Assembly: GCA_964036155.1 (NCBI GenBank)
Contig: OZ038423.1
Span: forward strand, 51,847,249 to 51,911,248
DNA from: Diploscapter coronatus
Lineage: Eukaryota > Nematoda > Chromadorea > Rhabditida > Rhabditidae
Length of the DNA: 64,000 nucleotides
Direction of reading: 5' to 3'
Shown here piece by piece: positions 25,201-55,700 of this stretch. The notes beneath the pieces are model-generated. The model did no database searches and was not told the origin of the DNA. It saw nothing but the letters and a program-made list of their open reading frames with translations. Within the stretch, counting starts at the first letter, position 1. Every line of letters starts with the position of its first letter. A program made the position numbers and the translations under genes.

Positions 25201-28200
25201 CTCTTTTTGCTCTGCCTTTCACACTCCCCCTTCCCTTTCCATTCTCAGATTCGAATTGTCAAATTCAGCCCTGCCCTGCAATTTCTGTTGCATTCAATGT
25301 ATCACTCATTCATTCATTCAGGCTTATCATCGAGTGAAGGCAGCAGTTTCGTGGAGAAGGCGGACAGTCCCTCGGCAAGGAAGATCGAGGATCTCAAGGT
25401 AGAAAATTGGAAATTGCTTTGCAGCAGCTTGATAAGAAAATAAGTGGCTAAAATATACGTAACATTAGCAGACTGAAAAATCTCATTTCCTTTGGACTAG
25501 ACACAGAATGCAATCTTCAAAAAGATTCTTATCCCAATTTTGACCTTTTTATTCTTATCGTTCTAGTGGGATTTTTGAATACGATGGATGTCAACAGGTT
25601 GACAGAAATGAAAATGGAGAGTCGGATAGGTACAAACGGAACAGGTTTGGTATCAAAGTGATCAGCATGTCAAAGTGCAAATTTTGATACCAGATTTATA
25701 TTATTCCTATTAATTTGGCAATTTTTGATATTTGATGTTTTACAAATCCGTTTTGGAAGACATGGAAGAATTCTCTTCCGGATAATCTTGTTCATCCGTC
25801 CCACAGGAATCAAATGAGCAGTTGTAATTTGCAATGCATTTAGCAAATTGGCTAGAATGGCAATCGAAAGATCCGTTTTTATTGAGATATAAGATATATT
25901 TTTTAAAATAATCAGATTCCTTTTCAAATATTCAAGATTAGCATTAGGTTAAGCTAAATTTTGTTTATGTTTGTGGGGAATGGATGCAAATTTATACCTA
26001 TTTTCATCGCGCGCTGACGACAATTTTTCTTCTGTAAAACGTGCAATTATCTCTGTACGCTATAATTGGTCGGATCTTCAATTGTTTCATTGAGCTTACA
26101 CAAATGATAAGTTTCGTTTGCAGAACAGCATTTCAACTTGCACTTCAACGACAGTCCTGCCTCACGTGATCAACCTCGAGCAGCTCGACCCGACCACGTT
26201 CTTTGCCTCGAAAATGTCCGACAAGTACAGGGACGAGATGGCCAGGCAGCTGAGCGACCGGGTCAAGACCAAACTCTCTGCAATCCACCAGTCATCCGAC
26301 ACGCGGCCCGTTGTTCCCGTCCCACTTCGACAAATCGCTGCTGATGAAAACAACATTCATATCGGTAAGCCGAAAGTTTATCTTATCGCGATGTAATTAT
26401 TATCGACCGGCTTCATATAAAATGGAGACTAAAAATTTGAAAAATGCTAATAAAACTCGATAGATGAAAGGACCAATTTATTTGTATTTCGATCTGATGT
26501 TTATCAAAAATGCTCAATTGCGTCTATTTCACACGCTCTTAGCAATTTTTTATCTCCAAAAAAGTTATTTTCAAATTGCCTGATTTATTCATTTGCCATT
26601 TAGATTTCATCACAATGGTTTTGAAAAGTTTCACATATTTTATTCCCTTCCTTAATTATGCTCACATAAATAACCATGACCAATACGCAGGCACATTGAT
26701 TTTTTCTGACAAAATGTTGAACACAAAATTGTATCTTTCAGCACACGCATTGAGCATATTGGATGTGCCCGCAGCCCCTCGGCCTGCATTCGATCAAAAA
26801 CTCGCAGAGTTGACTTCTTCACCTGGTGGATATTATTTGATACAAGGTTGAAGGATTCGTCATTCCCAAATTAAGGCTTCATTTTACAGGACCAGATTTG
26901 TCTGGGAAAACTCGAATGCTCTGCAAGCTATATGAAATGGTTCCTACAGATCATTATAAGTTAATTAGGTAGCTTTTGGATTTTCGTAGAAAAGTCTTAT
27001 AATTTATTTCTAGGTTTATCAATTTATCGTACGCTTCAACATTTGCTCACGAAGTTTGGCGACTTCTATTGATGTCTATTTGCGAGATGGCCAATTTGGA
27101 TCCAACTGCAGTCATTCATGTAGGAAATTTTCGCAAATTCTAAACTCTGATTGTTCCTTTTATTCAAGCCATTTTATATTCTTTCTGTTTGCTATGATTA
27201 CTTGTGAAATCCGTGGAATTTAAAAATAATCAGAAAAGTTATACATCATAATAAACGAATTGAAATGGAAATAACCCATATTTTGAAAGACTTCTTGTTT
27301 TAGACGATGAAGCTAAGTCGTTTGTTGATCGTCCTGGAAGATATCGTGTCCCAGCTGAATCGACCAATTTTCATCTTTATTGATGATATTCATCTCCTCA
27401 AACACGGTCATTTTCTCAGTACTCTGGACAAACGAAACAAAACGGTATGCATTCTACACTATTTGCTGCATTCATTCAGACTTATCTTATCTCTATTCTC
27501 ATTTTATCGAATTCCATATTCTTTCATGTAATTCCAGGCCCCCCAACATCTGCACATAATCGCGTCAGTCTCTAGTGTGGCCACAGTTCCCTCGGTCTTC
27601 CTAGTGACTTTCACGAACAACATCGACCTGCCCGACGAGGACGAGATCACCGATATTCTGAAGCGGAAACTCTCGCGAACGGACAGGAAAGTCACTGGCG
27701 AGCAACTTTCCGCAATCAAGAATCATGTTGGTTTCGAACACTTCATTTTGTTACTCCATGAATTTTCATTTCAGTTGACAGCCACTTCAAAAAGCATCGC
27801 CCTTGCAGAGGCTCTACTCGATGAAATACTGCTGGGAGGTGGCGTCGAAAAGTTTCAAGGAGGCATTGAAGGTTGGTCAACTATGTTTTCACCAAGACAA
27901 ATGAATTTTTGAAAATTTCAAGTCAGGCTTGTCATAAATTCGATTTTTCTGGGACAGGGACGGATAAATTCGTGACATGCCTGTTTTAAATTTAACTTCC
28001 TATCTCTGGACGACTTTGGATCATTTTCGTTTATATGTTTTTCGCTATGATCATCTTGTCTTCCATCGGCGAATGTGTGATAACTATGTTTTTACAAAGA
28101 AATACTAGCAGCATTAAATAACATTTCAGGACTTTAGCAGTTTTTACTGAAACATTCTAATGAAGTCTCAATTTCAGCCCGATTGGAGCGAATCGAGAAA

Positions 28201-31200
28201 GAGCACGGTGCAATAGCCGTGCAGGCCGTGTGCAAATACCTGTGTGTTTCCAGTCATGGTCTGTCCAAACTGGAGTTGTTCGACGTGCTCAGCAGCAATC
28301 GACCCCTTCTACTGTCCCTCGGCTGCTCACTCACTTTCCCTCCACTACTTCTCGATTCGATACTCAATTCATTAGGTCATTTATCTTTTTTCGCCAAAAT
28401 AACTATTCTCAAATTTTCAGGCTCAATGTTGCGTAAAGTTGTACTTGACGAACGAGAAATCATAGGAGTCTCCCACAATTCACTACTCAACATTCTCAGG
28501 CATCGGTAATTTCCTTATTCCTTCACTTTGAAAATTATTTCTTTGGAATTTAGATATGTAACAAGCACTACAGAATTGAAATCACTACATATTGATATAG
28601 CGGATATTTTTGGTGAATACTACCAAGAACCAGAAAATATTTCTCCTAGAAACTCTCTGTCATATCAGGTGAGTAGTCAAGATATTTTTCTTTACATCTG
28701 ACTGATTTTTTTAGAATTTTCCTCAAAATTTGAAGAGAGAATGTGGAACAATGAATATTAGAAAGTTACGGATTTTATGGTTCCATTTACTGCACACAGG
28801 TTAGGTTTACTTTAAGAAGCATAATGTATTCGCGTATTTGCAGGAAATATGGACAGTCTAAAAGAATTAGCGCTCTGCCAATTCGAATACATCGATGCGA
28901 CTGTGCGCACATGCGGAATGCTTCATCTTCTGTCTTTGTACGAGGAATGTGCCATGCAAGTTCTGCATCATGATATTCAAGGTCGGCATTTTGTTACCAA
29001 TGATTTGATTAGCTATTCTTCTGATTTAATCTTCTCACAATCTTAACAATAATTATCCTAATTAATTGGCAGAAAATCGATGAAAACTGGAAAAAAAAAT
29101 CTACGGAAATTGCGCACTTATAGCTAAAGGTATTTCGGGGATCTTTGGCGCAAGGCACTTTGAACGATTTTCGTTTGACGCAATTTTATCTTTTCCATTC
29201 GTGATTAACGGTGAAATTTAGTGATTTCAATGAGCTTCATTTTAAATCGGAAATTCTAAAAAAAGATTGGCGAATATTCGTAAAAAGTTGAATATTTACC
29301 TTGAAATATTTCTTTCCGAAAGATAATAGCTCCATTTTAGTTTTATGCGAACAAGTTCTGCTTCCTGCAATCCCGACAGTCGTTCAAGACAACGAGCAAC
29401 TCGCTGCAGAAGTCATTGGCAGATTGCGATTCACCAGAGGTTCATTTTAATGCTGTCGAAAGACAATAAATTCTTGTGTTTCAGCCGAAAACAGTCATTT
29501 CCTGAACACAATGGTGGAGCAAGCCATGTCTTGGGTGGATCTCTACAATCGACAGCCTCTGCTCGTGCCTCTCTCATGCTGGATTTCCCCGCCCGCAATG
29601 AAAACTTGCCGAAGTTTCCAATTGAAGGTTCATATCCTAGCAAAATTTAAGAATGAAAATCCTTCTAGGATTGGAAAGCAGCGCAGACAATCCTGGCCCC
29701 GACCCACAACCATCAGCACGTGCTCATCTCTGGCAACCAGTCCTCTCCTGGCATCATCTTCATGTATCACATTCCATCGCAGTTCCTAATCACTACCTTC
29801 AAAGGTAAGCGTTCTTTCCGTTTTTATTGTGTGAATAGCCTTAGTTTTGATCGCCATTCGCCAAATTTAAATGGAAAACTGAGCACCTATAATTCAGAAT
29901 ATGAAGATCATCAGTTTATTTTCAGGTCATACTGCCGCAGTAACATCTCTCTGTTCGAGCAATAATGGTCTATTCTTCATTTCCACTTCTGCAGATAAAA
30001 CTGTCAAGATGTGGAGTTTCCTAAATGCAAGTTGATGTTTCTGTCGGAATAATTAAAAACTAAAAGAAGTACAAAGCCAAGATTAATACGATTGATCTTC
30101 CCAGAAAATTGAAAACTTTCGGGCCTCATTGAGTCGAAGTCATACATAACCTCTTTTTATCGTGTAATTGCCCAATGATAATGATTCAACTTGTAGGGAG
30201 AATGCCTGAAGACTTTGAGACCTCACAACCAGAAAATAACCTGCTCGATTCTGAGTTCTGATGACGAATTCATGGTCACTGGTTCTGCAGACTCGAGCGC
30301 TAAGGTCATCAACATTGAGACAGGGGAAGTGATTCGCTCCTTCCCAGAGCACACGGGCAGCGTCGTCAGTCTGCAACTCACTTCCAATAATCAATTCCTC
30401 ATTACTGGTATGATAATTATATTATATTGAAGGAAAAACGATCATTCTTTCCTAGGTTCTGGTGATTTTGTGGTACAAATGTTTGACATTCAGTCAGGTC
30501 GCTGCATCTGTCGAATGGGTGGTTTAATGGCGCCAGTTAGTTGCTTAGCAATAACTCCGTAAGTGCTATTCTATCATAAGTGTATAATTACATTGGTAGA
30601 TTTTTCCATTCTGTTCAAAGCATTACATTGTTTTAATAAAATTGAATAATTATGCGTGAAGATGTTGCTAGATATTCTATTTTGTTGGTTTTCTAAAGTC
30701 TACTATATTATATAGATATATTTCGTTTCCAGAAACGATGCATTTGTTATCGTTGCGTGCGAAGACGAGACTCTCCGAGTGTTCAGCACCGTTTCCGGAC
30801 AGGAATTGTTGGAACTGATGGGGCATGAAGGAAAGGTAGGATCTAATTTTAAATTTGACGAAATGATTGCTCTTTCCCAGGTGAATGCCCTTGCAGCAGC
30901 CCAGGACGACTGTCAGCTCTTTGCTGCAACCAAGTCGAAGATCTTCTGCTATGACCTCCACAATGGCCAGATGGTTGACATCCTCGATTGCCAGCAGTCA
31001 TTCCCTGTCTGCAGTCTCAAGGTACTGTAATCATTTTCGTTGTCTAACATAACATTGGGAAATTAAAGAAAAAGAATTCGCAATGCTCTATATTTTTGGG
31101 TTTGAAATGATCAAAACGCAAATTTCAACTAAACCACTCAATAAATATTCATCCGATTCATATTTTCTTCTTATGACCAACAAAATTCATTCAGATCTCC

Positions 31201-34200
31201 TCCGACAATTACTTCCTGATTTCTGGTTGCGGTCCCCGTGTCCACGTGTGGAATGTGCAGAAGAGGATTCTGGACGGCCACGACGCGTCTCTCGACAAGG
31301 AAGGATTCGTCACTGCAATCGCCATGTCGCCTGATGAAAAGGTCGGATCATTTTCTGGTTGATTGGAGAATTGAAGTTCTATATCAAGTTATGATAAACC
31401 AGAGTTAGGGAGTATCTAATCTTGAAATTATTGATTCTTTGAAGAAATCATTTCAGTATCATACCATAGCCCTATACCAACATACAGAGTGCGCAAAAGT
31501 CTGAACCGCTAAAGATAACTTTGAAAAATTCCATACAACGCTAGTAAAAACAATATTAAAGAAGCTTTTATTCTAGTTATTATTATACTAGAATGTTCCA
31601 AAAATTGTTTTATTTCATTTACATTATAGCCACGATTCTATGGATTTTTCCAGTCTTAACTTTAAATGTAATAGCCGCCTAGGACTTTGGCTTGCCCTGT
31701 ACTTCATTTTTCCACTTTTAAACTTTCCAAGAAACTTCATTTTCAATTTAAAGTTATGAAACTTTGCAGTACTCCGCATGTGGTACGTTTAATGGAGTGG
31801 TTGCTTTCTGGGACATGGACATATGTCAGTGCACCACAACGGTATGTTTGACTCACATTTATCATCCCAAAAATGTACTGTTCAGGTAATTCATGCAAAG
31901 GGAATCCCTGTTTCCTGTCTGCGCTTTACATTGGACAACAGCATTCTGCTGAGCGGCCACTCGATGGGCGGCATCCTCATTCTCGACACTGCGACTGCCA
32001 CTGTCATTCGACATGCCAATGTAAGATTTATTCTTCTGAATTAATCGTTCGATTTGATAATATGGTGGTATACAAAAGTTTAGAATAATGTTGAATGCTT
32101 GAAACTATCAGCGTCATCGATTTCTGAATCTTTCAGGAATTCAAACATTTCACAATTTGACGAATTAGCTTTTTGAATAAGGAGAGGATAGTAAAACGCC
32201 TTTCCTTTCGCATACTATTTCACAAGTTACGAAGGTGTGAATTTTGCAATTTATTAAGTTTTTCATTTATTAATCCGAATAAAATTTTAAAAATCATTTC
32301 CTCTTAATATCATCTTCAGACGTAAAAATATCAAAGATAATGGTTTTAGCAAAAATATAATTGCAAATATTTTTAAAACTCATGCACTGATTCAAACATT
32401 TCAGTTGCATTCGGCAGAGATCGTTTCGATCTGCAGTTTGTTGGGAGGAAAAGTAGCGAGTTGCGACAAGGACGGCAGATTCGTCATGTGGAATGTGCAG
32501 GAGGAGGAAGATGCACCGGTAAGAATATCTGTTCTACACAATGAGTAGTTTTGTAAGCTTTACCAGGGCTATTTAGAATTTTCATTGAAAAAACTGAATT
32601 GGAGATGAGTCCAAGAACCGTAAAATTTCAACTCTATGATCTCATAATTAATAAAATGGCATCATAGCTTAAAATAGATATATTTATCTTTCAGGAAATA
32701 GTGGCTCAAGGCATCCAACCTCCAGTAATGATGCCTGCAGGAGGTCGAATTATCATAGGTCACTGCCCGAAAAATAGCAAAGAGTAATCTTGAAGTTTAT
32801 AGTTTCATCTGAAATGAGATTTTAGAATGAAAATCTGGACGATAGAAAACGATAATCCTGTGCAGAAGAATCGACTCTATCACAACGAAGAAATCACCTG
32901 CTTTGCCATGTCTTCGAGGTAACTTTAATGATAATTAGACGCGATATACCGATTACAACATTAGTGTCAAATTTGGCCTCTTGTATTTTTACCCCCTTTT
33001 TCTCTTCTCCTTGCTATTTTCCAAAAAAGGAGATAAAAAGTACAGGAGGCCTCAAATTTCATAGCAATCCCGAAAACTTGTAGATATGTCAGATTTTGTT
33101 CTGATTTCTATTGTTATTATTAACTCTATCTATCTCAGATCTAATGATAGTGGTAAAAATATGAAAATTTGTGATTTAAGAGGAGGCAGCCTGGTAGCGA
33201 CAGCTTCCATCGATCAGTCACTCAAACTATGGCAGATAGAATCCGGATTCTTGACTCAAGTCCTGGTCGGACATGAGGATGCAGTGACGAGTTGTGCTCT
33301 GGCTGAAGACGAAAGGCTCGTCGTGTCTGGGGGAAAGGATAAGAAGGTAGGAACCAATAATTTAAAATTAAACAATTTTAACGTTTCCGTATTTTTCATC
33401 GGTTTAGTTCGTCAAATTGAATCATTTCGTTTAGCTTTGACTTACTTTTTTTTAAATTGAGAATTTTTACAAACATTACGAAAATCCATGATCAATGAAA
33501 ACGACTAATTCCTTATGATTTTCTAGGTAATTGTGTGGAGTGTGGCGACTGGACAAATCATGCATTGTCTGACAGCCTCTGCCTCACTCTCTTCCATCGC
33601 CCTAACTGCAGACGCCACTGTGGTTTTCGCCTGTAAGTAATTATTTATTGATTGTAAAAAAGTAGGATCTTCACGATTTTACAAGTCTTAGCACGAGAAT
33701 AGAGCTCTCCAATTTCAGAATTAGTATTTTTTTTATTTTCAGCGACAGAAGAAGGCTGGTTGGAGGCCTGGTCGACTGACAGGGGAATCCTCCTTTCTTC
33801 ATTCAATGCACATCGCCCTATTCGACATATCATTTCCTCTTTCGAAGCCAACAGGTAAACCGTTCATTTTGTTCATACATCCTCGTTTTATTTAGATTGT
33901 TATGTCATTTGACAGCCTGTGCCCAATTACCTATTCTGTGTCTTCACAATTCCCCTGCGGGCAATGTTCTTCTGCAAAGACATCCCTCGTCGGGCAGAGC
34001 CCATTCCGTTGCGAGTCTTGGAGCTGATGGTATCCTTAGAATTGTCGATAGTAAAGGAATAAAGAATCCCAAAACCTAGGTGGTGCATTGGGAGAATCGC
34101 CAGGGAAGCGAGACATCTCGTCCAACTCGTTGCAGCCAGGCAATGGACCCTCTGCCTCGGGCGGCCTGTCCCCCACTCTCACTGCCTCTGGCTCCTCATC

Positions 34201-42834: not shown

Positions 42835-44589
42835 TTAAACATTCACTTCAAATGTCGTTGCGAATTTATTAGCAAAATAGCTCATTAAATACGAATCAAG
42901 TTTCCCAATATTCATCTTAGAGAATGGAAATATGGTGCTTAGTGAGTATCGATATTCCTAAAACTACACTACCTCAATTTTTAGATTGATTTGGCATGAC
43001 AAGTTTATCTTACTTTAACGAAGCGTTTTGGATTGATAGATGCCTTATGCCAAATTAATATCGAGTGCGAAATATACCCTTTTGAATAATCCTCGCATCC
43101 CTGCATGGGTGTGTACGCGTTTCGATTCTGTAGAAAAGTGAGAATCCATGAACATCCAGCTCCAGTAAATGACCCGAAAACGAAGACGAACGTGCTGAAT
43201 ATTCAAAATTGATTTAAATTTGAAAGAATACACCTACCTGATGAAGTTGGTGGTCATCGAAAGTTGAATTCCATTTAGTTCCTTGATACCGTACAGATCT
43301 GCGAGCGCGATGGCGAACCATACAGAAGTTATGGATGAGAGAGTGTTGACTAATGTCATCTTTGCCCAGTAGATTTTTGCCTCTCTCGTTGGCTAAATTT
43401 AGAGATAGTTTAGTTCAAATAATTAACATAATCAAGAACATTACTTTGCAATTTTAATTATTTTGGTATAATTTAATGTACATATAGGGACCGCCAGCCC
43501 TTTTGCCAAATTCACTCTGGTATTATGTTTCCTACATTTTAGGGGCTAAGGTGCCCCTCTAGTCCCCACCGAAAAAAAACACGTCACTGACAGAAAATTG
43601 TATAAAATTTAACGCAAAAAATCGCCCCTTTTCGTGAATAAGGGAAGGGGACGTGACCTATCTGCAAAAGGCACTGTGCTGCTCGTTCTCCCTTTCTTTT
43701 CCTGTCTTTGGGGATCTTTTCTCTGCATTCTCTTTCATTTTAGCATTGGCTTCTTCTATATTTTCGCGGATTATCAGAATCTTAGTTGCTCTATGCAGGA
43801 TTTTTTTCAATTTTTACATATGTTGTACATGTCAACTAGGTATACTGATTCATCAGAAAAAAAACTTTTATGTGCCTCTTTTCTAAGTCAAAATATTAGC
43901 ATTGTCGTAATTTGGTGTATTTGACGCACATTTGCAGACTTCTTTTGCACTAAATCAATAAATCGATATCATCACGTGAAAGAGCGGTATTGAATTGTGT
44001 AGTAGGTACCGATAAATTATTAAGGCGCATTCTTTGAGTAACCTGAAACAAAGGCCGGACAACTGCAAAAGTGTCTCGGATCCGAACCAAACTTATATGT
44101 TGGATACACCATGGACCCTAATCACAAAAATGGGAAGATCAGGTCCCGCCCCCAAAAGTGGGCGGGGCTAGGTGGGGGTCAAAGTTGAGCATTTTCACGA
44201 TTAGACACCCCTCAGGGGGTACAAAGAAAACTTTTTTGCTATGAAAGATTTTCGAAAAATTTTAAAAGTATGAATATGGCCATGGAGTGTACTTTCTAAA
44301 AATATAGACTTTAGGAAGTCAACCATTTGTTTGGGGCTGGAGGGGGTCCCAAAGTCAAAAGTGTCAAAAATAAGTTTCAAAAACATGCATATTTTGCATA
44401 AAATCGACTTTCCTGAAAAATTTGAATGTCATACCCACGATCGCCAATTAAGCACCTCAGCACATATTTCCATTGTGCTCTGAAAATTAGTTTTTATAAA
44501 TGAAACTATGAAATGATTACCATGCCGACTATGGATACGAAGAACATGACGGCGAGAGCAACGAAACTTTCCAAGTAGATATTGGCCAT
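42835..44589 (-). CDS. Small multi-pass membrane protein, 175 aa, unassigned
   Basis: Four exons agree in phase: 44521-44589, 43238-43392, 43014-43194 and 42835-42957. The ATG follows an acceptor-like TTTTAG by 3 bp, so the mRNA may be trans-spliced. Hydrophobic stretches FVALAVMFFVSIVGM, SITSVWFAIALADLYG and FVFVFGSFTGAGCSWIL predict three or so membrane segments; the rest includes REAKIYWAKMTL and GYISHSILIWHK. I recognise no family; a transporter-like fragment is possible, but the total length is short for one. The last exon is the least certain. A 1.1-kb intron (43393-44520) contains GC-rich repeat sequence. Confidence 0.5.
44125..44215. repeat. GC-rich short repeat within intron
   Basis: A locally GC-rich stretch in AT-rich surroundings contains CCCGCCCCCAAAAGTGGGCGGGG, whose ends pair as a short hairpin (CCCGCCC with GGGCGGG), plus a nearby G-rich run. 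It looks like non-coding dispersed repeat DNA. Confidence 0.4.
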
Positions 44590-46173: not shown

Positions 46174-48738
46174 TTCATAGTCAATATACCATAAATCACG
46201 GTTAAGGCGATAATTTACCATTAGCAATGACACTTTTAGCGCAACACATCTCGACCCCTATCCATGAGTTTTCATTGATCCATTTCACATTTTTCTTGGT
46301 TCTTGGTTTGATCTCGATTTATTCATTTTCAATTATTCAGTGACCAAGAATTGTCAGTTGGATCTGCATCGTACATTTTTACAGGAAAAATGAATAGCTT
46401 CAACTATTCAATTTATTACGAATCTCGAAACTATCTGTTCATTCTACCATTTGAATCAGCATCAACTCAGGGCTACAGTCCTGAAAGCCTAATGAAATTG
46501 CAATCCCATTATCGATTTATCATGTATTTTTATGGATTTTTTGGATGTGTGTTTATGCCTTTGATTACTATCCTGAAAATTTTGGCGGTACTTTTAATAT
46601 TTAGAAAATATATTAATAAAATAGATATATAGCATAATTTAGTAGGCAAAATATTCTTTAAAAAATTAAGCTGAGTTTAACTCAATTGTTTTACTTTCTA
46701 TATGCCATCTGTATAAGTTAGAATTAATGCCAATGACAAATTATGAGATTGTACGTGGAATGAATCTTTATATCGTTTTAGGAAGATGTAAATGATCGAA
46801 ATGGACATAGTCGATGTAGTAGTAATGGATTCCGAAATTGGAATTACTTCTGTTCATTCTTTGGATTTTTCGGTTTCATCCGCATGGCTCCAGAATGGCT
46901 TTGGAGTTGGCGAGAGTATGTCAATATTCATACTATATTGTATGAAAAATAACTTAAGAAATTCGATATTATATTCCTTATGCGTTCCATCGCATTACAT
47001 GACAATAAGCGATGATTGGATGTCGCTTTTTGTTGTATTTAAGGTAATCTTTTTATAATTTATTATTATGCAAATCTCAATACTACGATTTATATCCTGT
47101 ATAGTTTTGATATCATTCGACAACATTTTTAGATAATGCTATTTGGGGTATCGTACGACCTTTCATCTTTAAATACAGAACCCTATTTTGGATGTTTCAA
47201 TCACGTTTATCATTTTGCGTCTATAGTCTATGCATCACATATCATCAGTACATTTAGTCCATCAGGTATCGATGACACCGAATCAAGAGTGGTTGCAAAG
47301 TAGAAAAGGGAAAGGAAGGCGGGGTTTATTCTTCTAGTTTCCACCTTTACCCAGAAGGAGAGAGAGAAAGACACCGTCTTTCGTTGCTTTCTCTTCTTTC
47401 GAACAGAGGAAAACAAAAATTAAAATCGCGCCCATTTCCCTCCTCCGTTTTGCATCCCCATTTGGTTCGGACTTATCGATAAAATATTTTTTTTCCAACT
47501 CATTTAAAGCCTATTCATAAATTTAGGTCGTTGGTATTTCATGATCGACTACTTGATCATTTCTATAACTTATGCGTATTATGCAACCCGGGCTAAGTGC
47601 ATTTTGCCAAGAAAATTCATTTGTGTCACGATAACTACACTCCAAATTCTTCAGCAAATTATTGGGCTATTCATCACTGCACTAGCTTATGAAATCAAGG
47701 TATCATTGAAAAATGTAACAACTTTCAAGAATTGAATTTTTGAAGGTTTTCATTTGCAAAGTTTGATAACTAAATTTTTATTTTTGAATTTAATTACATT
47801 AACGATATTATCCTTATCATTTCTTTCAGATGTCCGGGCAATCTTGCAAAGAGTCTTTCGAAACACTCAAATACAGTAACATGTACTTTTCCATACAACT
47901 CATTTTCTATGTCAAGTATTTCTACGATGCCTATTTGGCTCGGAATAACCTCTATGACATGAAAAAGGCTATCAACGAAGCGCAAAGCATTTTTCCCATC
48001 GAAGAAATACCGTATCGCAGAATACGCATTGATCGGGTAAGGAAACAATAGCAATGAATTCATAAAAAAAAACGATCATTTTTGACCAATCTTTTTATTA
48101 TTGCCAGAATCGTTCTAAATGAAGATGCATTGTAAAGAATGTTCTAATGGCACTCAATTTGATTGTGCAAGAAAAAATGATTCATTTTTAAGTTTCCAAA
48201 TTATTCCGAAATTTTCGGGCTGTTTTTCGGGAACCTTTCAAGAACATTTTTTCCCGATTGGTTTCCGAACCCAAACCGCTCGGAATGAGTCCGAAAATCC
48301 ATCGGAGAATCGTGCTTCTCGAAAATCACACGTCCCAAATTCACGAGGTTTTGGCAATTTTCTCAATGTTCTTTCTTCTGTTTGGATAAAGTAGATAGAC
48401 AATGCATCGTTACCTAATAAACAAACTTCCAATTTTGCATAATTGCTCAAATGAACGTTTTATTTTCAAATTTCAGTATCGTCTGGTTCAATGTTGATGA
48501 TAAGATCGATAAGAAAGTTGATAGAGAAACGAAGAACTTATGTGAAAACTGTAAGAAGAATCTCTAGCTATTATTTTTTCATATGAAAATACCATTTCGT
48601 GTTTTTCAACATTTTTCCTCATAATTTATATTTACCGTATATTTCTCATATAACTAACTTATACATAAATCACACAATTTACACGAAGAATTACCGATTT
48701 CATTCCTCATATCCTGAATCTCACTTGTAAATTATCGA
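46174..48738 (+). repeat. Segmental duplication, copy B
   Basis: Matches 35441-37970 in direct orientation, including the upstream flank, all seven exon lengths and the 3' flank. See copy A. The homology ends sharply near 48738. Confidence 0.9.
46390..48497 (+). CDS. ELO-family fatty-acid elongase-like protein, copy B, abnormal catalytic region
   Basis: Paralogue of the gene at 35659-37733 with identical exon lengths: 46390-46587, 46782-46915, 46959-47043, 47133-47265, 47527-47699, 47830-48036, 48477-48497; about 316 aa if read through. Family signatures are retained: YLFILPFESA, FIRMAPEWLWSWRE, SGRWYFMIDYLIISITYAYY, ILPRKFICVTITTLQ and KYFYDAYLARNN. The HxxHH position reads HVYHF. Just upstream, in the other frame, NAIWGIVRPFIF corresponds to copy A DAIYGIARTFTF with mostly conservative changes, which suggests that frame was once coding. 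If the exon began at the earlier acceptor, copy B would have a TGA where copy A has TGG. An acceptor-like TTTTTACAG lies 5 bp before the ATG. It is therefore the more likely pseudogene of the two. Confidence 0.7.
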
Positions 48739-49537
48739 CTATCATGATTCTAAATCAATTTTTGTTATTGATTTCTATTCTTCTCTTAATTTATTGTCGC
48801 CATCCCGAGTTCGATGATAGATATGAAGATTTGTCAAGGTTTATTGGAATAAATTTAGAATATTTTATTAAAAAAAAAATCATATTCTGAGGAGACGAAT
48901 CAAATCAGATCGTACAAAAAGAGGTCAATCAAGAGTTTATTCTCGAAACAACTGACGCGTCGTTTTTTCATGCTAAAGCTTGTCGTTTTATAAAAGCGTA
49001 GAAAAGTCAGAGCATCGTATTCCTGATAATGGAAGAAAAAGCAATTTTACCTATAGCATTTCTCAAAATTCATTCGCTATTATTGTTTTTGTATAAATTT
49101 CTAAATCACAATACATTCATATGTGCTTATGCTGTATAAACTCCTTCTGCCTTTAATGGCTCATTTTCATTGTGCCAACATATATTTTATTAATTTTATT
49201 AAACCACTACAGCAATAAAATTTCCATATTGTAAGATTAGAAACAATGCAGTTATTAGAGATCAGAATATAATAACATACCGTGAAATCTCTAATATAAG
49301 TCCTCCTTCAGAGGGATATTGAACAATCGAAGCCCCGGGGCTTCCATTAAAGGTTCGACGATACTATAATATCATAGAGCTTGTATTCTTCAAAGGTTTG
49401 GCATTTCCTTATATTTTGGAATCTTCGTCGTTGAATAATAACATTTTTATGACTTGAAAATAATCAAATTGAACATGGAGGGAGATATTCTTTGATAATT
49501 TGGAACGTAGACATTTAGGACTGGGATTCAAGTAAAA
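48739..49537. other. Intergenic between convergent genes
   Basis: The 3' flanks of the ELO copy B gene (+) and of the Ig-EGF protein gene (-). AT-rich, no gene seen. Contains a short MITE derivative at 49279-49362. Confidence 0.55.
49279..49362. mobile_element. Short deletion derivative of the MITE family
   Basis: The left end ACCGTGAAATCTCTAATATAAG and right end CTTCCATTAAAGGTTCGACG are imperfect inverted repeats, and both match the ends of the element at 45648-45874. The 84-bp unit has lost the interior of the longer copies. Confidence 0.5.
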
Positions 49538-51306
49538 TTACACCCCTTTGTGAACGCTTTTACATGAGGATGCAATTCTGCTTGAATCCCAACCCTGAGA
49601 TTTAATTTCATCTTGGCGGTTTTTTAGTCTCATCCCAAGCTTGCACTGATTTTTCAACATCTCTAATTGGTGGATAGCTCTGAATATTTGAACTTTACTT
49701 GTAGAATTTACAAGGAAACAAACTTTAATAGTTCGTCGCCCATCTCGCTGTATCATTGGATCTTTCTGTCCTTTTGCTTTTTCTATACAATCAGAATCGT
49801 CGTCTAAAAAAGATGATGAAAATTTAATGAAAAACTAAATTAAAAATCTTACCATGCAATAATTTATCAAGATCACCGGTGAAGATCAAATGTAACTCAT
49901 GCTGAGGAACATAACGTCGGGCTATTTCCGTTATTTTCGTTATTCTCTTTGTATTTCTCTTTGTTTTTCTTCTAAAATTGATCATCTTTCAAAGTTTAAT
50001 AAATTAATTTGATCTCTGAAAATCAACCTAATTAAGTTATCATAAAAATAGTTTCTCCGATAATAAAGTTTTCGTACTGAATAAAGTCATACTTACTTTT
50101 CCTTGCAAAGCAAAATTCCGAATAAAATGGTTAGGAATATGGTGATGATAGCCAATATATCGATAATATTGATCACATACTTGACTAAATTAACTAAACA
50201 GATTGATTCTCTCCGATTTAACTCATTTTCAAGGATTCTTTTGTGCGACTCACCTGAATCAATTCTGTACCCAGTTACAAACTCGCAATTTTTCCCTGCG
50301 TAATTATCAAAACAGTCGCAAAATTTTATAGAGTCATAGATATAGCATTGCCCTGAAATAGGGATGCAAATGATTATGTATGGTCAAAAATTGTTACTTG
50401 CCCTGCCCATTACAGAAATCATCATTCATATGACAAAATTCACCGATTTTTTTATGGGGTCAGGCTGAAAATAATCATAAATCATGATTGAAGTTATTTG
50501 CCTGGGAAGATCTTGAAAATTCCAAAATAGTCTGATTTTTTCTCTATATTTCCCGAATGTTCATGTTGAAAAAAGGATAATGGTATTGAAATAAGCGAGT
50601 ACAAATTTCAGAAACTTATCGGGCGATTCAATAACTGAGAAAATATCAATAGTTTAAACTAATTTTCATAAGTAAATCTGCCAACCTTCTTGCTCTTTCC
50701 CTGTAGTCGAACCATCTTCGAATGTTCTGCTCCGTTATCAAGTCGTTGTGCAGAACAGTCATAGACTCCAGAATGCCAAGCCACCGCAAATGAATCAATA
50801 TCATAAACAATGCTGCAATTACCATCCTTTTATGTCTTTGCAAATATTTCAGTTTTTACCTGCTTCCGGCCTTTTCACCCACATCCTTAAATCCATCATC
50901 GAGTTTCTTCTGTAGTTTTACTGACTCTGCCTTCATTCCACTGCCTCCAACGCATCTAAGTAACCAATCAAATTATTATCATCTCTAATTTGTAGTGATC
51001 GCTTACTTAAAAGTCAGTTTATCTCCTTCGTACACATTTGCAACCTTAACAGGACCTCTATTCGCATGTTCATCTTCTGAAACCAAAGAATATTTCCCAA
51101 CATTTTGCAAATCAAATACAACAATTCTTTTCAAGGTCATTGTCCTTTTTCATGCAATGGACTTATGAAAAACGTCATTCTTTCAAAATTCGTAAGGTTT
51201 TTTCGTAATTTTTTCATCTGGCTAAGGGTCAATAGTGCTGGTTCTTACCGCGGGACAGGACAATTTCGTAAACTGGCGCAATCTCCATTTCTGATGGGAA
51301 AGCCAT
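49538..51306 (-). CDS. Ig + EGF + transmembrane protein, neuregulin-like
   Basis: Nine exons in phase: 51249-51306, 51007-51076, 50860-50955, 50686-50812, 50402-50464, 50254-50352, 50097-50193, 49853-49971, 49538-49803; about 330 aa. An Ig domain (residues ~30-115) shows EGDKLTFKCVGG and WHSGVYDCSAQ, the paired cysteines. An EGF-like domain follows: FCHMNDDFCNGQGQC then FCDCFDNYAGKNCE, with six cysteines in normal spacing. Next come one membrane helix (ILAIITIFLTILFGILLC) and a basic juxtamembrane stretch (KEKRKTKRNTKRITK), then a cytoplasmic tail ending SVHKGV. No signal peptide is seen after the start (MAFPSEMEIAPVYEI), as in some neuregulins. The exon at 50402-50464 is one base short in an A7/T7 run (50447-50453); as written the EGF frame meets a TGA. 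One intron has a GC donor. A membrane-bound EGF-receptor ligand role is an inference. Confidence 0.8.
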
Positions 51307-52789: not shown

Positions 52790-55700
52790 CTAGCGCGGCA
52801 GCTGATATGCAGAAGGCCTGGGCGGAATGACAGGCATCTGAGGCCGCTGTGGGGGGACTGGGGGAGGGGGACCGCGGATCGGAACCTGAGGAGGAGCCGG
52901 AGCGGCGGAACAGGGCGGCTGGGTGAACGACATCTGAGAGAATGCAGAAGGAACTGCAGGCGGAGGAGGAGCAGGGCGAGTCGGGAATGACGAGTTGCGA
53001 GGCATTGTGGGTCTGAAATGACTCGATTTACATTTGATAATTCATAGGTATCATGTGAAAACAATATATTTTCAAATAAAAAAACTGGTATTATGTTGAA
53101 CTTCATCACCAATGCTATTTGAACTTGAAACAAAGTTTCAAAATAATGACATTCTATAGACTTTTTAGAATGGAAAAGCGGGATAGAGAATGAAAATCTT
53201 TATTTTCTGAACATCTGTTCGACAAGTAAAAATTAAAAAAACCCACGGTGCTTGCGTATTTCCGTTTCCATTCTCAGGCCAGTCCAGAGGAGCCAAAGAG
53301 ACAGGAGTGGAGCCGCGAGACGAAGATCGTTCGGGAGGAAGGACGGGAAGAGAAGGGACTGAGGGAGCAGAAGGAATGGGAGAGGAGGAAAGTGGCAGAC
53401 TCGACATGCGCATTGATACCTCGTCCTCGTCGTCTGAAGATTGTGATACGAGTGAAAAGTTTAGAATATCATTTGGAAGAAAAAGCGTGATTTTCTTTTA
53501 AATTTATATGCACTCTGGTCTTGTCCGTTAACGGCAGCTAGTTTTCTACATTTTTAGTTGCTTCACACTTTCTAGCAAGTAGGAAGAATCGAGAAGGTAA
53601 AATCTGTTTCAGCAGTTACATAGATTATTTCGAACATTAATAAACTTTGATACCTAGAAAAAGTCCAAGTGAAATGTGAAAATAGTTTGCGATTTGTCGA
53701 ATAAAACCCTACCATCAAACTCGAAAGCGGCCGTCTGATCACTTTTGCTGGTGCAATTGACGATCTGGTCGGCTTCGTCTTCCAGGTCTTCAACAGAGAG
53801 GGGCGGTTTGAGGGCATAGGCCCAATCGGGAGACTTGAGTCGCACGTGCAACTTTTCGTTGCCTGAAATTAGATCAAATCTGATCGTGTTGAGAATTTTC
53901 AAACTATCACACCTATAATGAGTCCATCGATGCTGAGCACAGCCAGAGCGCACTCTCCCGAATTCACAATCAGCCACAACTCGCCTTCTCCGTATCTGAA
54001 AATATCAGTCATTTTTTTAATAAAAAAAGATTTTCTTACTTGCTAAGCAGCAACCGAATATGCAACTCGTTGAGTTGTTTGAGAATTTCTCCAAACAGAG
54101 TGTGTGGAAAGGTCTTTCTGCCCTCGATACTCACTATCAGGGTTGCATCTGGAGGACCCATGCAACTAAAATCGAGAATAAGAATGCTTGAGAATATGAG
54201 GGGAGAGCACTCACGAAATGACATCTTCCAACAGATTGAGGCATTTGGAAGTGTCGATTTTGTTGAGATTGATGGAGAAAAGAGCGCCGACAGGACGATG
54301 ATCGGATGTCTTCAGTTCGGATCGATAGTATCTAAAAGAATATTTGAATTTAAATAAGTGAATGTTTCGATGAATGTTTTGAAAAAAACCATGGCTACGA
54401 ATAAAAAACAAAAATCTGTACTGAATTACGAAAATGTAGTACTAGTTTGAGAAAGAATAACTAGGAATAAATTCCAACAGACCTGATAAGCTTGGTCTGT
54501 TCATTGGGTCGTCTCTGTTCCCTCCAGAGGATTCTGTCAGTCCAGGCTGGAGTTCTGCACTTCTCGCTCGTGTCGTAATCATCACTGAATGTGTCGTACT
54601 TGTACGTCGGTGCAAATGTTAGTGGACCTTCTTCGAAGCCTGGGAAAATCTAAACAAGACTGTTTTGAATCAACTATTTGGTGCTTTTTCAAATATTCAC
54701 CGTTTTAATAGAATAATAGGACTGATCTATAGAATTTAGTAAGAAATAAAATAGTATATTTCATGATTAACAGCAATAAACTAACCAAATTCTGAGCTTT
54801 CTGCTGTCCTAACTGATCGTGTGGGACGATTCTGTCGAGTTGTCCAGTTCGCACTGCCTCCTTCACTTCGTCTCCGCTCAAATTGATTCTAAACATGATT
54901 TTTTTAAATGAATATATCACATTTCAATACCTATAGTTGAAATCGCCCATCCAAATGATAACATCATGAGCAGGAATATCCTTTCCTTGAGGGAAACGAA
55001 TTTTTCTTACAGCTGTTTGGAAGTCGTCATTTCTATCACGAATCTGGAAAATTGAAAATAAACACTTTTTAAAATAAAAATGACCTCATTTTGTCCAGCA
55101 GCGAAATGTGAGCAGACGAAGCAGATGCTTGTTGAATGAACCACAATGCGAAACGCGACTGAGCCCTGAAACCAAAAGAATTCAATCACTGCATAATGCA
55201 ATAAACAGATTGTTTTCTCTATGTAACAAGCAATAATTTTCACACATGTGAATTATAGATAAATAATAGCATTTCTAGAGGACTTACTTTATTTCCAGTA
55301 GCCCCGCCCATTCCAGTCTTGACAGAGCAGACAGCGAAGTCCTTCATGAATGGAGCCAAGTGGGGTCGCATGAACAGGAACAGACAGACACCAACCTGAA
55401 AATAAATAAACAGCTATTTTGTTTTCCGTCAATAATTTTTTCATACCAATTGTTCACTGCCCAGAAGAATGTAGTCCGCTTTCTCTGCCAGAGTCCTCCG
55501 AATCGAGTCGCACCACAGACGCTGATTTGTCGTGCTGAATTCAATTAGTTTGTCGGGCTAAAAATGGACATGAAAATTGGTAAAATTCAATTATCAATGT
55601 GTACATTTGAATCAAAATTGGGGAAGTGAATTAATTTTTAAATATATATAATTTAACCTGGCTTTGACCATATTGCTGGCATTCAAGTCGACGAGTTCTT

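Follow-up and report, generated by a model that had tools for sequence, protein, structure and literature searches.

A multiplied Ig-EGF transmembrane gene in Diploscapter coronatus with a domain layout like that of Caenorhabditis elegans SISS-1

The window analysed here, a stretch of 64,000 nucleotides (C2:51847249-51911248) from the nematode Diploscapter coronatus, contains one of six copies that we found of a gene for a protein with an immunoglobulin-like (Ig) domain, an epidermal growth factor (EGF) module and a transmembrane (TM) helix. A gene for a LET-23-like EGF receptor (EGFR) is present in the same genome, and the copies of the Ig-EGF gene clearly change fast. We lean towards the view that the gene works like SISS-1 and IGEG-2 of Caenorhabditis elegans, which are described as Ig-EGF-TM ligands of EGFR (SISS-1 was first named IGEG-1; PMC12477552, PMC13014142, PMC12910300, PMC12593006, PMC12485627). 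The sequence-only reading of this locus had proposed a protein of neuregulin-like architecture, with an Ig domain, an EGF module, a TM helix and a basic juxtamembrane stretch but no signal peptide. This architecture holds for the gene family, as judged from Pfam, hydropathy and five intact copies (four of the five for the Ig_2 profile).

The gene model has ten exons on the minus strand, from 51306 down to 49608, and the encoded parts follow in the order short N-terminus, Ig-like domain, linker, EGF module, TM helix, basic stretch and tail.

Exon 1, 51249..51306, minus strand: N-terminus MAFPSEMEIAPVYEIVLSR, without a signal peptide (hydropathy)
Exon 2, 51007..51076, minus strand: beginning of the Ig-like domain (Ig_2 profile, residues 32-111)
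Exon 3, 50860..50955, minus strand: Ig-like domain, first Ig cysteine
Exon 4, 50686..50812, minus strand: Ig-like domain, SGVYDC motif with the second Ig cysteine
Exon 5, 50402..50464, minus strand: EGF cysteines 1-2, followed by a GC-AG intron; frameshifted in the window copy
Exon 6, 50254..50352, minus strand: EGF cysteines 3-6, with C4 and C5 in a single exon
Exon 7, 50097..50184, minus strand: transmembrane helix (hydropathy from the five intact copies)
Exon 8, 49853..49971, minus strand: basic juxtamembrane stretch
Exon 9, 49724..49803, minus strand: cytoplasmic tail
Exon 10, 49608..49679, minus strand: C-terminus, in the frame of the other copies

In all six copies the ATG is preceded, at a distance of 12 bases, by an acceptor-like CTACAG, which would fit either trans-splicing of a leader or a first exon without coding sequence. 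The donor after exon 5 is a GC donor (G|GCAAGT) in every copy, and it was adopted because a plain GT donor, which was discarded, would throw exon 6 out of frame. Splice sites were recognisable across the copies, with the acceptor of exon 7 in copy L010 needing a different placement to preserve the frame, and by our own count five of the seven exon length differences among the copies are multiples of three. Intron 9 measures 44-45 bases in all six copies; its donor is GTTTGT (GTTTAT in L010), a weak donor which counts against the splicing of this intron. In the frame that the six copies share, exon 10 reads open, and five of them end at the same stop, the C-terminus of L013 having a frame change that runs past the common stop. 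A read-through last exon (to 49538) was discarded on account of an early stop in three of the six copies (L010, L013 and L014). The nine-exon model proposed earlier ended at 49538 because its last exon was read through, and we replaced it by the ten-exon model; that end also falls in a dispersed repeat (window 49509-49612) just downstream of exon 10. The repeat contains 61 of the 67 matches of the genome DNA search, matches many places on both strands (75-92%), has inverted ends (GGGATTCAAG...CTTGAATCCC) and is absent from the span of the window alignments to copies L012 and L014.

The products of the five intact copies were searched against Pfam at E values up to 0.05. All five matched EGF_Teneurin (best E 2.5e-5; L011 scored above the Pfam cut-off, L010 under it), and four matched Ig_2 (best E 2.1e-4; under the cut-off in every score shown). 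The product of the window copy matched Ig_2 (E 3.6e-4) and no EGF profile. The Ig_2 match covers residues 32-109/111 and the EGF_2 match residues 128-161. The six-cysteine EGF pattern (C128-C161) is present in all the intact copies and occurred in none of 20,000 shuffles of L011; the six cysteine codons are also present in the window copy, in separate frames. Each intact copy has a TM helix (best 19-residue hydropathy 2.07-2.92), the best hydrophobic window beginning at residue 177-182 and thus close to the six-cysteine EGF module, and the helix is followed by a basic stretch with 6-10 K/R in 20 residues. The claim that the helix ends in a cysteine applies to three of the six copies, the other three having tyrosine at this position. 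No hydrophobic N-terminus was seen in the first 60 residues of any intact copy, and when the 3 kb upstream were searched for an exon of 30-120 coding bases that could supply a signal peptide, the candidates differed between copies and none was common to the six.

Comparison of an EGF profile made from the five copies with PDB sequences gave epigen as the best match (E 0.0017), followed by factor X (0.019 and up), epiregulin (0.059), EGF (0.17) and heregulin (0.63-0.65); LIN-3 was not named among the matches at E up to 1. These scores are weak throughout, and heregulin stands behind epigen, factor X and others. The suggested likeness to neuregulins holds for the layout of the gene family, and no special tie of the EGF module to vertebrate neuregulins was seen. 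The Ig part alone had no match among PDB sequences at E up to 10, so that its assignment rests on the sub-cut-off Pfam Ig_2 match, two cysteines and an S-G-x-Y-x-C motif. When the 290-residue product of L011 was compared with a general protein database, 365 candidates were returned with none at E up to 10, a result that is not evidence of absence.

The genome searched comprises 169.7 Mb in three contigs, two of which (C1 and C2) measure 87.7 and 82.0 Mb and the third about 13 kb. Diploscapter coronatus has been described with a diploid assembly of 170 Mb, 2n = 2 and a heterozygosity of 5.7% (PMC5483258), and the chromosome-sized, divergent C1 and C2 agree with a diploid animal that has a single pair of chromosomes; they were treated as haplotypes. 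A genome DNA search, in which 40 of 44 candidates were scored, located three copies of the Ig-EGF gene on each large contig.

Ig-EGF copies on C2: 51.698, 51.897 (the window copy, L009) and 51.956 Mb
Ig-EGF copies on C1: 55.170, 55.357 and 55.436 Mb

The five other copies were 87-90% identical to the window copy in this search, and pairwise identities in the full alignment of the six ranged from 85 to 92% (15 pairs). A protein search of the genome with the L011 product gave 54 matches, all at the six Ig-EGF loci. The stretch common to the copies extends over about 2.2 to 4.2 kb, in pieces at places, and in the pair L012/L014 (C2a/C1a) the flanks are also 92% alike. The tree of the copies grouped L012 with L014 and, more weakly, L009 with L010 (92/97). 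From these groupings, chromosomal place and similarity are partly discordant; exchange between copies or late duplication could each explain the mismatch.

Several neighbouring features were recorded. An elongase gene (ELO, PF01151, above the cut-off), convergent with the Ig-EGF gene, has its last part at window 47541-48040 on the plus strand. This elongase gene adjoins some of the Ig-EGF copies; with 40 of 1757 candidates scored, at least six other places on C1 and C2 were 86-92% identical to it across 2.5-3.2 kb. A synaptojanin-like gene at about 52800-54600 of the window, on the minus strand, comprises a PF22669 piece, a DUF1866 piece and a proline-rich end; on C2 it is found upstream of the Ig-EGF gene at a distance of about 1.5 kb, and its one C1 counterpart lies about 18 kb from the C1b Ig-EGF copy. 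An NWD1-like winged-helix piece and a WD40 piece at window 28138-28506 and 33065-33457 (plus strand) perhaps belong to a single NACHT-WD40-type gene. Dispersed repeats of about 400-540 bases, at about 43484-44423 (plus strand), are present in dozens of copies (80-91%) on both contigs. Scans of the window for tRNA and composition added nothing.

Compared with the other five copies, the window copy carries a frameshift in exon 5. There is an A run at 50447-50453, the first stop is at 50426-50428, and the product ends after 129 residues, before the EGF module; the EGF and TM exons still follow, in a different frame. The window copy thus does not encode the single Ig-EGF-TM protein that had been read from it, and in its present frame it would yield an Ig fragment only, without the TM helix, whereas the other five copies (L010-L014) are open through the Ig, EGF and TM regions. 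An assembly error is conceivable, since the change sits in a homopolymer, where errors occur. Amino-acid changes private to the window copy were found in 6 of 80 EGF and TM codons and in 1 of 117 Ig codons (Fisher p 0.019), a skew that would fit lost constraint. However, L010 shows a similar skew with an open frame (11 of 80 EGF and TM codons and 2 of 117 Ig codons, p 0.002), which counts against that inference; the private EGF and TM changes in L011, L012, L013 and L014 number 0, 1, 0 and 1. The window copy is probably either degenerating or mis-assembled.

Pairwise dN/dS values, computed by the simple Nei-Gojobori method with our own script, were 0.47-1.06 over the 15 pairs of copies, and those of the pairs matched by contig order were 0.53 (L012/L014), 0.65 (L009/L011) and 0.47 (L010/L013). 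For allelic pairs of D. coronatus with significant values, a median dN/dS of 0.12 with none above one is given in PMC5483258, by methods that differ from ours. Over the six copies, the differences were 0.101 at codon positions 1 and 2, 0.102 at position 3, 0.074 in trimmed introns and 0.108 in upstream DNA. The excess of positions 1 and 2 over the introns gave a permutation p of 0.008 with the six copies and of 0.064 without the window copy. The fast change may stem from diversifying selection or from weak constraint, and the range of dN/dS leaves room for relaxed constraint.

Among the known systems compared, SISS-1 appears to be the one that the copies resemble most in layout. Damaged cells are reported to use SISS-1, together with the sheddase ADM-4, to act on the LET-23 receptor of sleep neurons (PMC12477552, PMC13014142, PMC12910300); the gene model of SISS-1 is given as F28E10.1 in PMC12910300 and as F28E10.2b in PMC13014142. 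Its essential Ig domain is placed at Pro11-Arg109, and its EGF domain starts at Asp119 (PMC12477552, PMC13014142). The likeness in layout consists of the order Ig, EGF and TM, the lack of a signal peptide (implied by the coordinates of SISS-1) and a start codon after a short 5' UTR. The end of the Ig domain and the start of the EGF module are also close to those of SISS-1, the Ig_2 match ending here at 109-111 and the EGF module beginning at about 119-128. Pro11 is invariant in the five intact copies (the Ig_2 match itself starts at residue 32), and in L011 residue 119 is Asp. A difference from SISS-1 is the presence of three copies per large contig. IGEG-2 (F48C5.1) has its Ig domain at 46-117, its EGF domain at 127-168 and its TM helix at 188-210, and its gene has an intron between the codons of EGF cysteines 4 and 5 (PMC12485627). 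The domain order and the location of the TM helix about 20 residues past the EGF module are shared with our copies; the position of the Ig domain differs, and the C4-C5 intron is missing here. Over-expression of IGEG-2 is reported to lead to LET-23-dependent sleep and vulval induction (PMC12485627, PMC12593006), and both SISS-1 and IGEG-2 are reported to require their Ig domain (PMC12477552, PMC13014142, PMC12593006). In view of these two ligands, the earlier statement that nematode EGFR ligands are usually described as LIN-3 type without an Ig domain, and that the present gene may represent an underdescribed family, is outdated. LIN-3 is also a nematode EGFR ligand, but it is described as having no Ig domain (PMC12477552). 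Vertebrate neuregulins and Drosophila Vein are alike in belonging to an Ig-EGF ligand class, with the TM helix and the basic juxtamembrane stretch as further points of likeness; the EGF module here does not, however, match heregulin better than it matches epigen or factor X, and Vein differs in retaining the splice site between cysteines 4 and 5, according to PMC1618406.

That splice site and the placement of the EGF module beside the TM helix are given as marks of ErbB ligands by Stein and Staros 2006 (PMC1618406). According to the same source, tomoregulins have His where all the other verified ligands carry Arg before cysteine 6, and Drosophila spitz, keren and gurken are without the C4-C5 splice site. 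In all six of our copies the C4-C5 splice site is absent, C4-x-C5 lying inside exon 6 and the EGF intron lying between C2 and C3, and the residue before cysteine 6 is Asn (G-K-N-C) instead of Arg. Because both the splice site and the arginine are missing, we refrained from classing the gene among the ErbB ligands. On the receptor side, the search returned a LET-23-like EGFR exon (GF_recep_IV) once on each large contig, at C2:503780 (L044) and C1:565510 (L043), and it matches the solved LET-23 best (E 7.8e-12). The membrane-proximal domain of ADAM17 was not found in this genome, and the 14 controls were empty too, so that this search was uninformative.

The SISS-1-like layout, together with the LET-23-like receptor exon, leads us to read the product as a membrane ligand precursor of the SISS-1/IGEG-2 kind. 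The protein would enter the membrane by means of the TM helix itself, and its ectodomain would be anchored with the Ig domain outermost and the EGF module beside the membrane. A cut in the short linker between the EGF module and the helix may then shed the ectodomain, which would act on the LET-23-type EGFR of neighbouring or distant cells. This reading is favoured by the Ig and EGF profiles and the six cysteines invariant in the intact copies, by epigen as the best PDB match of the EGF module (with epiregulin, EGF and heregulin lower), by the Ig and EGF boundaries near those of SISS-1, by the opening of five of the six copies through the three domains despite a divergence of 8-15%, and by the exon length differences in multiples of three. 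The two missing ErbB-ligand marks, the factor X scores near that of epigen, the teneurin type of the top Pfam EGF match, the general protein search without a relative, the Ig part without a PDB match and the dN/dS values, which allow relaxed constraint, argue against it.

The gene might instead encode a membrane protein of Ig-EGF layout that works without signalling via EGFR, for example an adhesion- or guidance-type surface protein or a binder of ligands or co-receptors with a general EGF module of the factor X, Notch or teneurin type. The failure of two ErbB-ligand marks in all six copies and the teneurin-type top match point in this direction, as does the G-K-N-C ending, which is common to factor X modules. 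We nevertheless consider such a protein rather unlikely, since ErbB ligands likewise carry one EGF module just ahead of one TM helix and since tomoregulins, which are treated as ligands, also lack the arginine and spitz, keren and gurken the splice site (PMC1618406); moreover, epigen ranks above factor X, and the Ig-EGF-TM layout is described for an EGFR ligand twice in C. elegans (PMC12485627, PMC12477552).

A different question is how many of the copies are functional. Only one member may be functional (perhaps the pair L012/L014), with the others, including the window copy, drifting to pseudogenes, whether or not the gene signals via EGFR. Besides the frameshift of the window copy and the C-terminal frame change of L013, this is suggested by codon positions 1 and 2 differing as much as position 3 and more than the introns, and by the concentration of private changes in the EGF and TM codons of L009 and L010. 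The open frames across Ig, EGF and TM in five of the six copies, the preference for exon length differences in multiples of three, the splice sites recognisable throughout (with the exon 7 acceptor of L010 placed elsewhere) and the near absence of private EGF and TM changes in L011-L014 speak against it, and we regard such a decay as possible but doubtful. That the exons are a chance join of an Ig gene and an EGF-TM gene is very improbable; the Ig and EGF exons of the window copy are in different frames and the model was read from genomic DNA, but the same exon chain with compatible phases and one open frame each recurs in five of the six copies. We also think it improbable, though somewhat less so, that a single-chromosome parthenogenetic lineage multiplied an Ig-EGF damage or sleep ligand, giving six alleles and paralogues that diverge fast and have lost the ErbB-contacting arginine from their EGF modules, some of them (the Ig-only form of the window, the divergent EGF module of L010) serving as modulators or decoys of EGFR signalling and not as ligands.

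Taken as an analogue of SISS-1, the gene is probably a fast-evolving, multiplied Ig-EGF protein of an already known layout that works in the manner of that ligand. Given that SISS-1 and IGEG-2 need their Ig domain, several diverging copies in a relative of Caenorhabditis would be natural variants for probing the key residues of the Ig and EGF domains, and they could show whether LET-23 still responds to an EGF module that lacks the usual arginine.
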